Below are positions 1-5,375 of a DNA stretch of 5,375 nucleotides, piece by piece. The DNA lies in NCBI GenBank assembly GCA_025774205.1, contig JALGWK010000153.1, positions 1-5,375 of the forward strand, read 5' to 3'. The notes beneath the pieces were generated by a model. That model searched no databases. It saw only the letters and a list, made by a program, of their open reading frames with translations, and was not told the origin of the DNA. Position 1 is the stretch's first letter. Each line of letters opens with the position of its first letter. This DNA is from a bacterium. Its GTDB lineage: Bacteria > Blakebacterota > Blakebacteria > Blakebacterales > Blakebacteraceae. The position numbers and the translations under genes were made by a program.

Positions 1-575
1 ATCCCGGTAATCAGTGGGATCAGGCCCTCCTGGCCTACCTGGCCGGGGAACGTCGATTCGCCCCATGGGGATGGGGTGAACTGGCCCTTCATCCCCAGCA
101 GATGCAGGGCAGGAACCCCAAGCGGATTAACGAGGTCCTCTCGGTTGTTCGCGCGCCTGACCGATCTCCCCGATCGATCCTCGATGCTCTCAAGAAGGGC
201 AAGGGGTACGCGGTGCGGGCCACGAACATGGATGGACGGCTCTCGCTCGACCGCTTCACGGTGACCTCAGGGGGCGCGAGCGCCCTCATGGGGGAGGAGG
301 TGACCTGGCAGGGACCGGTATCGGTCGAGGCGTCATGGAGTTTCACCGGGGAGGAAACCCGCCCTGCCACGGCCTATCTGGTCCGGTCGGGGGCAGTGGT
401 CGACAGTGTGACGGGAGAGCCACCGATGAGCCTGACGTATCAGGAGGGAAGTCTCGAAGCGGGCGAACAGGGCGCCTATTTCCGGTTACAGATAGAGAGT
501 CGCGGACATCGACTGCTCTCGAATCCTGTCTTCATCCGGAATCGTGACGGTTCAGCGCAGGAGTCAGACCAGTGA
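1..575 (+). CDS. C-terminal part of a probable PHP-domain (CehA/McbA-like) metallohydrolase, 5' truncated
   Basis: The frame is open from the first bases of the window (first whole codon at 3) to TGA at 573-575, giving 190 visible residues. An internal ATG at 102 is not the likely start, because coding continues upstream of it without a break. The stretch SPRSILDALKKGKGYAV followed by a beta-rich tail that ends in YFRLQIESRGHRLLSNPVFIR-like sequence (about 25 residues from the stop) resembles the C-terminal end of PHP-fold metallohydrolases of the CehA/McbA type. In these, an 'ILeAL+xG+xY' helix follows the last metal-site strands, and the protein ends in a small beta-sandwich with an 'xNPIxV' motif. 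The metal-binding motifs would lie upstream, outside the window, so catalytic competence cannot be judged. Members are generally predicted phosphoesterases or hydrolases of unknown substrate. The gene overlaps the WbqC gene by 4 bases (GTGA), which suggests co-translation with the glycan genes. The family call rests on the C-terminal pattern only. Confidence 0.6.
   Translation, partial: PGNQWDQALLAYLAGERRFAPWGWGELALHPQQMQGRNPKRINEVLSVVRAPDRSPRSILDALKKGKGYAVRATNMDGRLSLDRFTVTSGGASALMGEEVTWQGPVSVEASWSFTGEETRPATAYLVRSGAVVDSVTGEPPMSLTYQEGSLEAGEQGAYFRLQIESRGHRLLSNPVFIRNRDGSAQESDQ
559..563 (+). promoter_or_regulatory. Ribosome binding site for the WbqC-family gene
   Basis: AGGAG lies 8 bases before the GTG at 572. 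It sits inside the end of the preceding gene and supports GTG as the start, in a 4-base GTGA overlap typical of coupled translation. Confidence 0.65.
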
Positions 576-1264
576 TAGCCTCGATCCATCAGCCGCAGTA
601 CCTCCCCTGGCTCGGGTATCTGGACAAGATCGACCAGGCCGATGTCTTCATCCTGCTTGATACGGTCCAGTTCAAAAAGGGGGAGTGGCAGAACCGGAAC
701 CGGTTCAAGACCGCCCAGGGACCGTCCTGGATAACGGTGCCGGTCGTACACGATTTCGGGCAGTCGCTCTCGGAGGTCGCGATCGATCCCCGCCAGGGAT
801 CGTGGAGCCGGAAACACCAGCAGGCGTTACGGACCCACTACGGTTCGACACCTCATTTCGCCGGCGTGGCCGAACGTCTTGACCAGGTCTGGGACCAGAG
901 CTGGGAGCGGCTGGCTCCCCTCAACCGGGCCACCGTGGAAGCGTTCATGGAAATCCTGGGGATCGATACTCCTCTCCTCTGGGCCAGCAACCTGGAGCCG
1001 GCCCCCGATCACCCGGATGAGCGCCTTATTTCACTCTGCCGCCAGGCGGGCGCTGACATTTATCTGGCAGGCTCCGCCGGTCCCGAATACATGGAGATGG
1101 AGCTCTGGCGGGACAGCGGCATCGAGGTAACGATTCACGAATTCACCCACCCGGTGTACACTCAGCCCTTCGGTGAGTTCATGCCCGCGATGTCGGCTGT
1201 GGACCTACTATGTAACTGCGGTCCGGATTCACTCGCGCTGATGCGTTCAGCCAATGGCCGCTGA
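572..1264 (+). CDS. WbqC-family protein (glycan biosynthesis, exact reaction unknown)
   Basis: This 230-residue protein starts at GTG and is full length for the WbqC-like family. Visible family signatures are HQPQYLPWLGY (residues 6-16), the LLDTVQF and NRNRF segments (29-45), AGSAGPEYM (166-174), and a C-terminal HPVYTQPFGEF plus DLLCNCGPDS block (193-220). I see no signal peptide or membrane segment, so it is probably cytoplasmic. WbqC-like genes are found in O-antigen and other polysaccharide clusters, but I do not know of a settled catalytic role, so no reaction is assigned. The context is a deacetylase, a sugar aminotransferase and a WecA-like initiating transferase directly downstream. 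This fits a role in making or modifying an amino sugar. The GTG start is supported by AGGAG 8 bases upstream and by the motif beginning only five residues in. The family call is secure; the function is open. Confidence 0.93.
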   Translation: MIASIHQPQYLPWLGYLDKIDQADVFILLDTVQFKKGEWQNRNRFKTAQGPSWITVPVVHDFGQSLSEVAIDPRQGSWSRKHQQALRTHYGSTPHFAGVAERLDQVWDQSWERLAPLNRATVEAFMEILGIDTPLLWASNLEPAPDHPDERLISLCRQAGADIYLAGSAGPEYMEMELWRDSGIEVTIHEFTHPVYTQPFGEFMPAMSAVDLLCNCGPDSLALMRSANGR

Positions 1265-1273
1265 GGCTCCTGC

Positions 1274-1279
1274 GAAGGA
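1274..1279 (+). promoter_or_regulatory. Ribosome binding site for the PIG-L gene
   Basis: GAAGGA ends 8 bases before ATG 1288, within the only true intergenic gap of the window (23 bases, 1265-1287). The gap is too short for a separate promoter and terminator, and I see no hairpin in it. Confidence 0.6.
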
Positions 1280-1287
1280 CACGGGGT

Positions 1288-1914
1288 ATGGATGACAAGG
1301 TGAATATCCTGGCTATCGGAGCACATCCCGATGACATCGAATACGGCTGCGGCGGCTCTCTGCTGAAATACGCCAGGTCCGGACACAAGATCTTCCTCTA
1401 CGTCGCCACCCATGGATCGGTTGGAGGGACGGGTGACGTCCGCGCCACGGAGATGGAAGCATCAGCTGAGGCACTCGGGGCTGAAGATCTCTTCTGGGGA
1501 GGTTACGCCGACACGCAGGTCCCACTATCGCAGGACCTGATCTCCGAGATCGAGGAGATCATCGACAGGATCAAACCACGGTTCATCTTCACCCACTGGC
1601 GGGATGACACCCACCAGGATCACCGGAATCTGACCGCCTGTACTCTGTCCGCGACACGCTACATCCCCAATTTCCTCTTCTACGAGGGACCGACATCCCA
1701 TGGATTCACCCCGAACGTTTTCGTTGACATCAACGATGTTCTTGAGGACAAAGCCGGACTTCTGAGGCTGCATGCTTCCCAGATAACCAAGACACACATC
1801 GAGGACACTTCGATCATCGACATGGCCATGAGCAACGCGACGTTCCGCGGGATACAGGCAAGGGTTCGACATGCGGAAGGATTCACCAGTCAGCGACTCT
1901 TCATTAATCTCTGA
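1288..1914 (+). CDS. PIG-L/LmbE-family zinc-dependent N-deacetylase
   Basis: The 208-residue product has the hallmarks of the PIG-L/LmbE superfamily (GlcNAc-PI deacetylase, MshB and BshB relatives). These are the N-terminal AHPDD motif (residues 12-16) after a hydrophobic strand, a G-CGGSLLKYARSG helix (20-32), an RATEMEASAEALG segment (53-64), and the HQDH motif (109-112). By family analogy, H13, D16 and H112 would bind zinc and D15 would act as general base. The conserved AEGF (196-199) near the C-terminus indicates that the domain is complete. These enzymes hydrolyse N-acyl groups, usually from N-acetylglucosamine-type substrates. Here the neighbours suggest an N-acetylated sugar, either nucleotide- or lipid-linked, in a surface glycan; the substrate is inference. 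No signal peptide is evident. Its last 44 bases overlap the start of the aminotransferase gene in another frame. Confidence 0.94.
   Translation: MDDKVNILAIGAHPDDIEYGCGGSLLKYARSGHKIFLYVATHGSVGGTGDVRATEMEASAEALGAEDLFWGGYADTQVPLSQDLISEIEEIIDRIKPRFIFTHWRDDTHQDHRNLTACTLSATRYIPNFLFYEGPTSHGFTPNVFVDINDVLEDKAGLLRLHASQITKTHIEDTSIIDMAMSNATFRGIQARVRHAEGFTSQRLFINL
1860..1864 (+). promoter_or_regulatory. Ribosome binding site for the DegT-family gene
   Basis: AAGGG lies 6 bases before ATG 1871, inside the end of the PIG-L gene. No other ATG, GTG or TTG occurs in frame between here and the first conserved residues (PHSRP), so this site decides the start and makes the 44-base overlap real. Confidence 0.6.
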
Positions 1915-2968
1915 TATCGTCCCGCACTCCCGTCCGACGCTGGGTGATATCGAGGAGGCAGCCGTCCTGCGGATACTCAGGAGCGGTCATCCCGGCGCCG
2001 GCCCTGACGTCATCGCTCTTGAAGACGAGATAGCCGCCTACCTTTCACATCCCGGTGCCATCGCGACCGGATCCGGCAGTCAGGCACTCCTGGCGGCATT
2101 GATGAGTCTCGATCTTCGCGCGGGAAAGCGGGTGGCGATCCCGGCCTTCACCTGTTCGGCGGTGTTGCACGCCGTGGAATGGGCCGGAGCTGAACCGGTA
2201 CTGCTCGACGTGGCTGAGGGAGCGATCGCCCCCGATCCGGCCGCAATGGATTCCGCCGGCACGCTTCCTGACGCCGCCATCATCGTGCACCCCTGGGGCC
2301 TGCCGCTCGATACGACGGCCTGGAAGGAAGTCGTTCCGATCATGATCGAGGATTGCGCCCAGAGTATCGGCGCCCGCCGGGAAAGCACCCCGGTCGGCAC
2401 CACTGGTGATGTCGCGGTCCTTTCCTTTTACGCCACCAAGATGCTCTGTGCCGGTGAGGGTGGTGTCCTCTCGGCGGCGGACGAGGCGATCATCGAGCGG
2501 GCCGGGGACCTTCGCGATTACGACGGCAAAGCGGAGTGGGCACCACGTTTCAATTTCAAGATGAGCGACCTGCAGGCTGCCCTGGCCATCGCGCAGTGGT
2601 CACGGCTGCCGGAATTCCTGGAACGGAGGGCCCTCCTTGCTGACCGATATCATGAGCCGTTCCGATCGATTGGCCTGACTCCCATCCTGCCCGACCCCGG
2701 ATCGCTCGGATCGTGGTATCGCTATCTCTGCTGGACACAGACAGATACGGCAGATCTGCTCCAATATTGTGTGAGTCAGGGTGTACACTGCAGACGTCCG
2801 GTGCCCGTCACCCTGGATCGGCTCATGGGCAGTGATCCCCTCCCGAACACGAGGGAAGCGTGGCATCGGGTGATAAGCATTCCCATCTATCCGTCTCTGA
2901 CGGAGGATGAGCAGGATCGCGTCATTGAGGTGCTCGGGGAGGCGCGCGAAAGGGGACTGATCAGTTGA
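1871..2968 (+). CDS. DegT/DnrJ/EryC1/StrS-family PLP-dependent sugar aminotransferase
   Basis: The 365-residue protein matches the full length of DegT/DnrJ/EryC1/StrS (ArnB/PglE-type) enzymes. These usually transfer an amino group from glutamate to a keto-sugar nucleotide. In order it shows: VPHSRPTLGDIE (17-28), an RSGHPGAGPDVIALEDEIA segment (37-55), ATGSGSQALLAAL (65-77) in the PLP-phosphate region, and the PAFTCSAVLHAVEWAGAEPVLLDV block (91-114). IEDCAQSIGA (159-168) follows, with D161 expected to contact the PLP nitrogen, then SFYATKMLCAGEGG (185-198) with K190 as the probable Schiff-base lysine. RFNFKMSDLQAALA (226-239) and the closing SIPIYPSLTEDEQDRVI (336-352) complete the fold. The key lysine and aspartate are both present, so it should be active. 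The sugar substrate cannot be read from sequence. A few members of this fold are dehydratases, but those usually lack the lysine. It overlaps PIG-L by 44 bases upstream and the membrane transferase by 4 bases downstream. Confidence 0.95.
   Translation: MRKDSPVSDSSLISDIVPHSRPTLGDIEEAAVLRILRSGHPGAGPDVIALEDEIAAYLSHPGAIATGSGSQALLAALMSLDLRAGKRVAIPAFTCSAVLHAVEWAGAEPVLLDVAEGAIAPDPAAMDSAGTLPDAAIIVHPWGLPLDTTAWKEVVPIMIEDCAQSIGARRESTPVGTTGDVAVLSFYATKMLCAGEGGVLSAADEAIIERAGDLRDYDGKAEWAPRFNFKMSDLQAALAIAQWSRLPEFLERRALLADRYHEPFRSIGLTPILPDPGSLGSWYRYLCWTQTDTADLLQYCVSQGVHCRRPVPVTLDRLMGSDPLPNTREAWHRVISIPIYPSLTEDEQDRVIEVLGEARERGLIS
2949..2955 (+). promoter_or_regulatory. Ribosome binding site for the WecA-like gene (TTG start)
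   Basis: AAAGGGG ends 9 bases before the TTG at 2965, which overlaps the previous stop as TTGA. A stronger-looking GGAGGA lies at 2975-2980, after the TTG, but no ATG, GTG or TTG follows it in frame at a usable distance. Confidence 0.5.
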
Positions 2969-4125
2969 ATCTTCGGAGGACATTTACCACTATCATCGCT
3001 TTCCTGTGGGTCCTCCTCTTCTTCATCCTCGAATCGAACATCCAGACTCCTCGGTGGCTCCACTGGCTTGGTCCCCTCATCCTGGCGGCAGTTGTTTCAT
3101 TCACACTTGTGCCGCTTCTCTGCTGGCTGGCCGAGAAGATCGATCTGGTCGACCGACCCGATGCGCGCAAGATCCATGAAGGCGCCATCCCGCTGGTCGG
3201 CGGGATCGCCATCTACGCCGGTTTCCTCGTGATGAACCTCCATTATGGATATTACGTGGGGAGCCCGGAAGTCAGCGCCATCATGATAGCGTTGGGCCCC
3301 CTGCTGCTGATCGGCGTGTTCGATGACCTCTGGGACCTCCCGGCGACCCTGAAACTGCTCGTGCAGATAGGCGCTGCCATCATTGTCATTGCGGCCGGCG
3401 TAAAGTTCACGTTCCTGCCACCCACCTGGTGGGGGCATGCAGGTGAGGTCATACTGACCGCCGTCTGGTTGATCGGGCTCACCAACGCGATCAATTTCCT
3501 GGATGGCATCGACGGGCTCGCGACTTTGCTGACCATTGTCGCAATGACGGCCTTCGGCTTCATCGCCCTGACCACCGACCAGGATTCCTTCATGCTTCTC
3601 TCGGCCGGTCTCGGCGGGGCCTGTCTCGGTTTCCTTCCCTATAATCTCAGGCGCAGACCCGCGGCCGCCTTCCTGGGAGACTCCGGTGCGACCATCCTGG
3701 GATTCTCCCTGGCTTCCTTCGCCATCATGGGAGACTGGGGCGGGGCAGGAACATCCCTGGATATTGTGGTTCCGATCCTGATCCTGGGTGTGCCCATCTT
3801 CGATACGACCTTCATCACCATCACGCGGTTCGTGGACGGAAGAATCAGGACGTTCCGGGAGTGGCTGGAATATGCCGGTCGGGACCACATCCACCATCGC
3901 CTGCTCAAGATCGGGTTGAGCAGATTCGAAACGGTGATCTTTCTCTGCATCATTTCCTTCATCCTGGCCCTGACTGCCATCACCGTGAAACAGGGCGACG
4001 ACTTTTTAGCCGTACTGTCTCTCCTTCAGGGTGTTATTATCCTTAGCATCATCGGACGATTCATGATATTCATGGAACACAAGTCAGTCACACTGCACGA
4101 GGAGACCGATGGTTCGTCTGAGTGA
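2965..4125 (+). CDS. MraY/WecA-family polyprenyl-phosphate sugar-1-phosphate transferase, integral membrane
   Basis: The 386-residue, highly hydrophobic protein carries the complete signature set of the polyprenyl-phosphate HexNAc-1-phosphate transferase family. It has DLVDRPDARKIHEGAIPLVGG-type sequence (60-80), DDLWDLPATLKL (120-131, the Mg-binding acidic motif), and NAINFLDGIDGLA (174-186). FLGDSGATILGF (236-247) and HIHHRLL (308-314) follow. The HxHH-type loop is typical of WecA/TagO/WbpL-like enzymes rather than MraY. The expected reaction transfers a sugar 1-phosphate from a UDP-sugar to undecaprenyl phosphate at the cytoplasmic face of the inner membrane, the first committed step of glycan assembly. 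Hydrophobic segments near 8-22, 36-55, 75-92, 105-118 and several later stretches up to 370 suggest about ten or eleven helices. The TTG start includes the first helix; the next in-frame ATG falls at residue 90, inside the membrane domain, so it is unlikely. The sugar could be GlcNAc or another HexNAc. Confidence 0.94.
   Translation: MNLRRTFTTIIAFLWVLLFFILESNIQTPRWLHWLGPLILAAVVSFTLVPLLCWLAEKIDLVDRPDARKIHEGAIPLVGGIAIYAGFLVMNLHYGYYVGSPEVSAIMIALGPLLLIGVFDDLWDLPATLKLLVQIGAAIIVIAAGVKFTFLPPTWWGHAGEVILTAVWLIGLTNAINFLDGIDGLATLLTIVAMTAFGFIALTTDQDSFMLLSAGLGGACLGFLPYNLRRRPAAAFLGDSGATILGFSLASFAIMGDWGGAGTSLDIVVPILILGVPIFDTTFITITRFVDGRIRTFREWLEYAGRDHIHHRLLKIGLSRFETVIFLCIISFILALTAITVKQGDDFLAVLSLLQGVIILSIIGRFMIFMEHKSVTLHEETDGSSE
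4099..4104 (+). promoter_or_regulatory. Ribosome binding site for the HD-GYP gene
   Basis: GAGGAG ends 4 bases before ATG 4109, a rather short spacer. It sits inside the last codons of the WecA-like gene, so translation of the two genes is probably coupled. Confidence 0.5.
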
Positions 4126-5375
4126 AAACTTTCCATCGGAGCCGGAAGCCACCAGACCGGTCCGAAAAGAAGATCCTCCTCCGGGTGTGTCGTTGCCCGA
4201 GATCCTGATTCTCTCTGACGACACCGCGATGGTCGACCTCATCCGCGGCGCTATTGAGGATCGCGGGTACCGGATACGCTATTTCCCCACTGCCACTGAA
4301 CTGCAGATCCGTCTGAAATCTGCCGGACGGGTAGTGATGGTAGTGGATGGACGCATCGAGGGCGCTGGTTCCTTTCTGCGGGATATAGCCACGTCCGACT
4401 ACCCGGACCGGATCGTCATCCTGCCTGATACCGATCAGAAGGGACTCTTCGACGGTATCCCGGATCTGCGACTGCAATCATTACCGGTGACGGCCAGAGA
4501 ACTTCTGACGACCATTGAGGAACTCTCAACGGCACCCGCCACGCGCCCGGGCAGCGATAAAACGAATCTCTTCTCTTCCATCACGAAGCCGGAGACCGAC
4601 CAGGCGCCCAGGAAACAGGAAGTGTCATCCGATATCCCGGACGAACCTCCGGAAGTCGAACTGCTCCTCGACACGGCCCCTGCCAACACATCCGAAATAC
4701 CTGATCCTGTCGAGCAGGTTGAGGTTGCCGCGGAGGAACCGGTTGAGGAACCGGTTGCCGACGAGCCAGCCGATGCGGAGAAGGCCGCGAGCGATCTCGA
4801 GGGCCCGGCGCGGATGAGTGACATGGTCTCCACCATGCCGGTCGTACCGGAAGGAGTAGAGAAACCCACTATCCCGGAGTCTGCCACACTTCCGACTGCG
4901 GCTGCCCCCGTCAGCAGCGACAACGCGATCTGTGATACCGTCACGAACCTCTATCAGGACGCTGTTGCGGTTACCCTGCAATACCTGCGCGGACACCGTG
5001 GTCGTTCGGATCCTCTGCAATACCTGCGCGGACACCGTGGTCGTTCGGATCCTTCTATCTCCGGAGTCGCCCAGATCGTCGAACAGCTTATCGAGAACAT
5101 GACCAGCTCCAGCGACCTCTGTCTGAAATCCATCCAGCACACGTCAAATTTCGAAGATGCAGACCAGTATCTGGCCTTTCACCACGTGAACGTCGCAATC
5201 CTTGCGATGCGGGCCGGAATGGGGCTGCAGATGTCATCCAGCGATCTCTATGAACTCACTCTGAGTGGGATCGTACACGATGTCGGCATGACCCAGCTGC
5301 CGGCGGGACTGATCACCAGGCAGGGTAAACTCGATCAGTCAGGGTACGCCCAGATCAAACAGCATCCGTCCTATG
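4109..5375 (+). CDS. Receiver-like plus HD-GYP domain protein, probable cyclic-dinucleotide phosphodiesterase, 3' truncated
   Basis: The frame is open from ATG 4109 to the window end (422 codons visible, no stop). Residues 30-138 look like a degenerate response-regulator receiver: strand EILILSDD with D37/D38, strand VVMVVD with D80 at the phospho-acceptor position, and strand RIVILPD. The usual lysine before the last proline is replaced (QSLPV, 123-127), so phosphorylation may be lost. Residues about 141-270 form a Pro/Glu/Asp/Ala-rich, probably disordered linker. Residues 273-345 are helical lead-in sequence containing a perfect 13-residue duplication (290-315). From about 350 the HD-GYP domain begins: AFHHVNVAILAM (356-367, H358 a likely metal ligand), the HD pair in IVHDVGMTQLP (388-398) and KQHPSY (417-422). 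The GYP motif would lie beyond the window. HD-GYP proteins typically hydrolyse c-di-GMP, and some act on other cyclic dinucleotides. No membrane segment is visible. The start overlaps the WecA-like gene by 17 bases. Confidence 0.88.
   Translation, partial: MVRLSENFPSEPEATRPVRKEDPPPGVSLPEILILSDDTAMVDLIRGAIEDRGYRIRYFPTATELQIRLKSAGRVVMVVDGRIEGAGSFLRDIATSDYPDRIVILPDTDQKGLFDGIPDLRLQSLPVTARELLTTIEELSTAPATRPGSDKTNLFSSITKPETDQAPRKQEVSSDIPDEPPEVELLLDTAPANTSEIPDPVEQVEVAAEEPVEEPVADEPADAEKAASDLEGPARMSDMVSTMPVVPEGVEKPTIPESATLPTAAAPVSSDNAICDTVTNLYQDAVAVTLQYLRGHRGRSDPLQYLRGHRGRSDPSISGVAQIVEQLIENMTSSSDLCLKSIQHTSNFEDADQYLAFHHVNVAILAMRAGMGLQMSSSDLYELTLSGIVHDVGMTQLPAGLITRQGKLDQSGYAQIKQHPSY
4531..4920 (+). other. 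Low-complexity acidic/proline-rich linker coding region
   Basis: Codons 141-270 of the HD-GYP gene encode a stretch dominated by Pro, Glu, Asp, Ala, Val, Ser and Thr (for example AAEEPVEEPVADEP at 208-220). I see no predicted domain or hydrophobic core. It probably acts as a flexible tether between the receiver-like domain and the HD-GYP half. The antisense frames across it are long and serine-rich only because of this composition. Confidence 0.7.
4733..4756. repeat. Perfect 12-bp tandem repeat, two copies
   Basis: GAGGAACCGGTT occurs twice back to back (4733-4744 and 4745-4756), encoding EEPVEEPV-like sequence in the disordered linker. The unit is a multiple of three, so the frame is kept. 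Linkers of this type often grow and shrink through slippage. Confidence 0.9.
4976..5053. repeat. Perfect 39-bp tandem duplication, two copies, in frame
   Basis: Bases 4976-5014 are repeated without a mismatch at 5015-5053. The identity stops exactly at both ends: the base before copy 1 is C against T before copy 2, and the base after copy 1 is C against T after copy 2. Each copy encodes LQYLRGHRGRSDP (residues 290-302 and 303-315) in the lead-in to the HD-GYP domain. Identity at the third codon positions as well as at the protein level implies a recent event or an assembly artefact. No mobile-element ends or terminal inverted repeats flank it. Confidence 0.95.

Follow-up and report, generated by a model that had tools for sequence, protein, structure and literature searches.

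The window, that is, the whole stretch of DNA analysed here (5,375 nucleotides), is the entire contig C429 of a draft MAG made up of 527 contigs, with a total of 3.09 Mb and a rated completeness of 86%. From 572 to 4125 it carries a run of genes for a WbqC protein, a PIG-L deacetylase, a DegT aminotransferase and a family-4 (WecA-like) glycosyltransferase, the order of which is kept in the same-genus genome G001 and which is probably a surface-glycan cluster. Downstream of this run, on the forward strand at 4109–5374, lies an HD-GYP-type gene, represented by the 422 codons of its 5′ part, delimited by the ORF listing, the contig overlap and a Pfam HD_5 match, and cut by the end of the contig. 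The start of its catalytic domain (HD_5, residues 356–421) occupies 5174–5374 on the same strand and is likewise interrupted. The terminal 114 bp of the contig (5262–5375) recur without change as the first bases of contig C440, a length which fits a de Bruijn k of 115, and through this exact overlap the gene carries on into C440 to give a joined protein of 596 residues.

The joined protein matches the HD_5 profile from residue 357 with an E value of 4.4e-24 (85.6 bits against a curated cut-off of 27.2) and contains the motifs HDVGMTQLP and ERLDGSGYP, such that profile and motifs together identify it, at the level of sequence, as an HD-GYP domain protein. In keeping with this assignment, it matches chains of known HD-GYP phosphodiesterases (PDB 5z7c, 4mcw and 4r8z; E values from 8e-23 to 9e-17), with which it has HD and DGSGYP motifs in common. 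It differs from the HD-GYP cyclic-dinucleotide phosphodiesterases in having an extra 13-residue duplicate, which lies outside the catalytic domain. There are differences of detail in the GYP motif too, in that the canonical members read HHExxDGxGYP, and 4mcw HHERWDGTGYP, where the protein here reads EHERLDGSGYP. Its N-terminal part resembles a receiver domain, as judged by eye only, and its Pro/Glu-rich linker is poorly conserved.

The 13-residue duplicate is the product of a 39-bp tandem duplication at 4976–5053, the two units of which lie on the forward strand at 4976–5014 and 5015–5053. Tandem Repeats Finder gives a period of 39, 2.0 copies and 100% identity, and a separate repeat search found the same pair, confirming the exact in-frame duplication described in the initial annotation. 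The unit, CTGCAATACCTGCGCGGACACCGTGGTCGTTCGGATCCT, encodes LQYLRGHRGRSDP, which is accordingly read twice in frame (residues 290–315 of the joined protein). The units abut directly and are identical even at silent sites; moreover, the array stops at exactly 2.0 copies, with zero additional matching bases at both edges and no partial third copy. An exact 39-bp tandem copy would be expected by chance in 5375 bases with a frequency of about 2e-20. The array ends 322 bp from the end of the contig. It had been placed just before the HD-GYP domain, and it does lie upstream of that domain, but the HD_5 match begins only some 40 residues after it.

Copy number in relatives and the predicted structure around the repeat

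In alignment, the same-genus orthologue in G001 (MAG Meg19_1012_Bin_119, JALGVQ010000044.1; locus L036 on contig G001:C1, reverse strand) has one 39-bp unit, reading VAITLQFLRGHRGRSEPPISGIAQIVEQIIE, and is missing the second. The longer stretch around the array site, LYEDAVAITLQFLRGHRGRSEPPISGIAQIVEQ, likewise contains a single unit. This orthologue is the sole one of useful length: alignment of two orthologue segments gave the same-genus MAG as the only match, a scan of the named genomes for relatives of the window protein was negative, and a search of viral contigs found none. A further gene, in G003 of the same family, says nothing on copy number because it carries the N-terminal part only, at a contig end. 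The G001 orthologue itself has two frame-shifting gaps, one of about 100 bp in the linker and the other of 76 bp in its catalytic domain, which may reflect either a pseudogene or further assembly errors; it was used only around the arrays, where the alignment has no other gaps. The guess of the initial annotation, that the single-copy form is ancestral, is borne out to the extent that the same-genus orthologue has one unit. The single copy is, then, probably the ancestral state, as judged from one orthologue, of another species, in which a loss is formally possible, although the identity of the window's two copies, silent sites included, tells against it.

The annotation had also raised the prospect of a phase-variable or tuning element, in which the copy number of the 13-residue unit would set the coupling of the N-terminal regulatory half to the HD-GYP domain, the extra residues lengthening or re-registering the helix between them. 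All that speaks for such an element is the position of the unit, in frame and on the N-terminal side of the catalytic domain, and a direct in-frame coding repeat is indeed a feature that it shares with phase-variable coding tandem repeats. Unlike those repeats, however, which are multi-unit, slippage-prone arrays, it consists of exactly 2.0 copies of a long, 39-bp unit, with no copy-number variation seen and a single copy in the only orthologue. The predicted structure does not help either. In an AlphaFold2 model of this part of the protein, built from two sequences and of low confidence (mean pLDDT 64), the first helix ends within copy 1, and copy 2 falls in a poorly predicted stretch between two helices (model residues 28–41, pLDDT below 50). 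In other words, the weak model would place copy 2 outside the helices, shows no confident helix extension and lends no support to a lengthened or re-registered helix. With the further finding, described below, that the 39-bp unit is no different from frame-breaking duplications elsewhere in the MAG, a tuning or phase-variable element appears very improbable.

The same model bears on a second reading, that of a real, recent and neutral duplication in the sampled strain, by which a replication error or end joining copied the 39 bp. According to this argument the in-frame product would be tolerated because the extra residues sit in the flexible connection from one helix to the next, and the additional copy is indeed predicted, weakly, to lie in the low-confidence inter-helix stretch. 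It is also consistent with copies that are identical, in frame and missing from the same-genus orthologue. The edges of the array, on the other hand, are without microhomology, and further objections come from the genome as a whole.

Exact tandem duplications across the genome

Exact tandem duplications with a unit of at least 18 bp, and up to 599 bp, were sought in 82 contigs of the same MAG, amounting to 497 kb excluding Ns. The 12-bp GAGGAACCGGTT repeat at 4733–4757 of the window was excluded from the statistics, its unit being below 18 bp and its setting a low-complexity linker. Sixteen duplications were found (3.2 per 100 kb), a count which becomes 14 without the two events of the window and C440, both of which were in the sample because of the finding itself; the remaining contigs were picked mostly in numerical order, not randomly. 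Control stretches, 29 in number and totalling 552 kb, taken from unrelated genomes of mixed quality, contain three (0.54 per 100 kb; conditional binomial P = 0.0011, where this and the other P values assume independent events and were calculated after the pattern was noticed). MAGs of the same family contain one in 199 kb.

Once two arrays that run on into a long partial third copy had been left out, a clean set of 14 two-copy events remained, their units ranging from 21 to 104 bp. The unit is not a multiple of three in 8/14; in other words, six are in frame, a proportion in keeping with one third (P = 0.31) and far from 90% (P = 2e-5). The edges of the clean set have only 0–2 additional matching bases, near chance, and microhomology-mediated slippage was on this basis rejected as a mechanism. 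Six of the 14 lie 241–375 bp from a contig end, where the zone within 400 bp accounts for 12.7% of the sequence (P = 0.005); this distance would correspond to about one paired-end insert.

The HD-GYP gene itself contains a second clean in-frame event, in contig C440 (L037, 330–379), where 24 bp are duplicated to give QQLIRLGG twice and the G001 orthologue has a single copy. Given this second case and the genome-wide set, duplication of this kind is not special to the 39-bp site or to this gene. Elsewhere, an exact 22-bp duplication (L048, 375–418) interrupts the frame of a PEP-utilising enzyme, probably pyruvate phosphate dikinase, and is single in both G001 (L179) and G002 (L180); reading it as one copy opens a frame of 398 aa. 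One-copy readings similarly extend the frame of a TonB-dependent receptor from 595 to 940 aa and that of a DUF1846 gene from 338 to 508 aa, and they create frames of 333 aa in an outer-membrane efflux gene and 205 aa in a TrkA_N ion-channel gene, where there were none. In the last of these the duplication is of 104 bp (L062, 267–474) and the relatives have different sequence there, as would be seen with a wrong assembly patch.

By DNA alignment, relatives are single-copy at the 39-, 24-, 22-, 22- and 53-bp cases, that is, at the PEP-utilising enzyme, DUF1846 and efflux loci and at both HD-GYP sites. Match lengths indicate that the same holds at the 21-, 66- and 45-bp cases. The 66-bp case is an exact in-frame duplication (L142, 3906–4037) close to the start of an endonuclease III-like DNA-repair protein of the HhH-GPD type, for which the match lengths point to one copy in three family members. 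Three further frame-changing cases, in L140 (23 and 55 bp) and L142 (22 bp), gave no confident gene assignment.

A neutral duplication in the sampled strain must be set against these observations: a roughly sixfold excess of like events in the same genome, which occur in conserved genes and close to contig ends and of which about half disrupt the frame. Extrapolation of the eight frame-breaking events per 0.5 Mb to 3.1 Mb would give some 50 freshly broken genes per cell, which is unlikely. It is thus ranked second, as a reading with a small but appreciable probability. That the organism truly gains clean, homology-free tandem duplications of 20–100 bp at an unusual rate, in conserved genes as well as others, is a much slimmer prospect; were it true, it would amount to an unusual mutational process in a candidate lineage. 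A search of the literature on short tandem duplications in bacteria found nothing useful in this regard. Phase variation fares no better here, since the event is one member of the genome-wide set, in which many of the exact duplications break the frame. Both leading readings were among the options listed in the initial annotation, as recent slippage and assembly error, and it is the latter that the genome-wide set favours.

Assembly and the probable source of the second unit

Five contig pairs overlap by exactly 114 bp, which points to k = 115 in a de Bruijn assembly; three all-N contigs gave false 400-bp overlaps and were disregarded. Every unit is at most 104 bp, and thus below this k, despite the search having extended to 599 bp. 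The possibility that a longer array had collapsed at the k-mer level was also considered and dropped, 39 bp being far below k = 115.

These features lead to the reading that is preferred here with good confidence, namely that the second 39-bp unit is absent from the organism and is an error of short-read de Bruijn assembly. The genome is fragmentary and probably poorly covered. Neighbouring pieces of the assembly would share an overlap, here of 39 bp, that is shorter than the k-mer. Were such pieces joined, whether through scaffolding, local assembly or the extension of their ends, and the short overlap left unmerged, it would be written twice, giving a false tandem copy in a gene whose true form, like that of the relative, would hold one unit. 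The observations behind this reading are the exactness of the copies, their excess over other genomes, their indifference to frame, the single-copy relatives, the lack of microhomology, the clustering near contig ends and the overlaps that fit k = 115. As a counterpoint, the 39-bp event is in frame and leaves the gene open, and on its own would therefore be tolerated. Nevertheless, an assembly error, and not a biological switch, is the most likely explanation of the duplication.

We infer both the exact joining step and the identity of the assembler. A published setting of IDBA-UD, mink 65 with maxk 115, was used for Guaymas Basin-type metagenomes processed by the group working on those sediments (PMC9258230, PMC8204110), and the Meg19 cores, the source of the same-genus MAG, are from the Guaymas Basin and were assembled using IDBA-UD (PMC10290634). 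From k = 115, IDBA-UD would be the assembler of the MAG of the window as well. With a mink of 65, a pair of copies truly spanned by reads would be assembled as such, and a later joining step must therefore be responsible for a false one.

For a draft genome that is a species representative, the consequence is a warning: clean duplications that look false occur at a density of about three per 100 kb, some 40% of them resembling in-frame innovations and the others pseudogenes. Claims of copy number or of pseudogenes made from this MAG therefore need read support. Errors of a similar kind have been described for IDBA-UD, in which they are prominent (Chen et al. 2020, PMC7111523): there, too, a short exact duplicate is left at a join, local repeat numbers are wrong and genes are corrupted. 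The duplicated overlaps in that study had Ns inserted between them, whereas the copies here abut, with no Ns at the sites.
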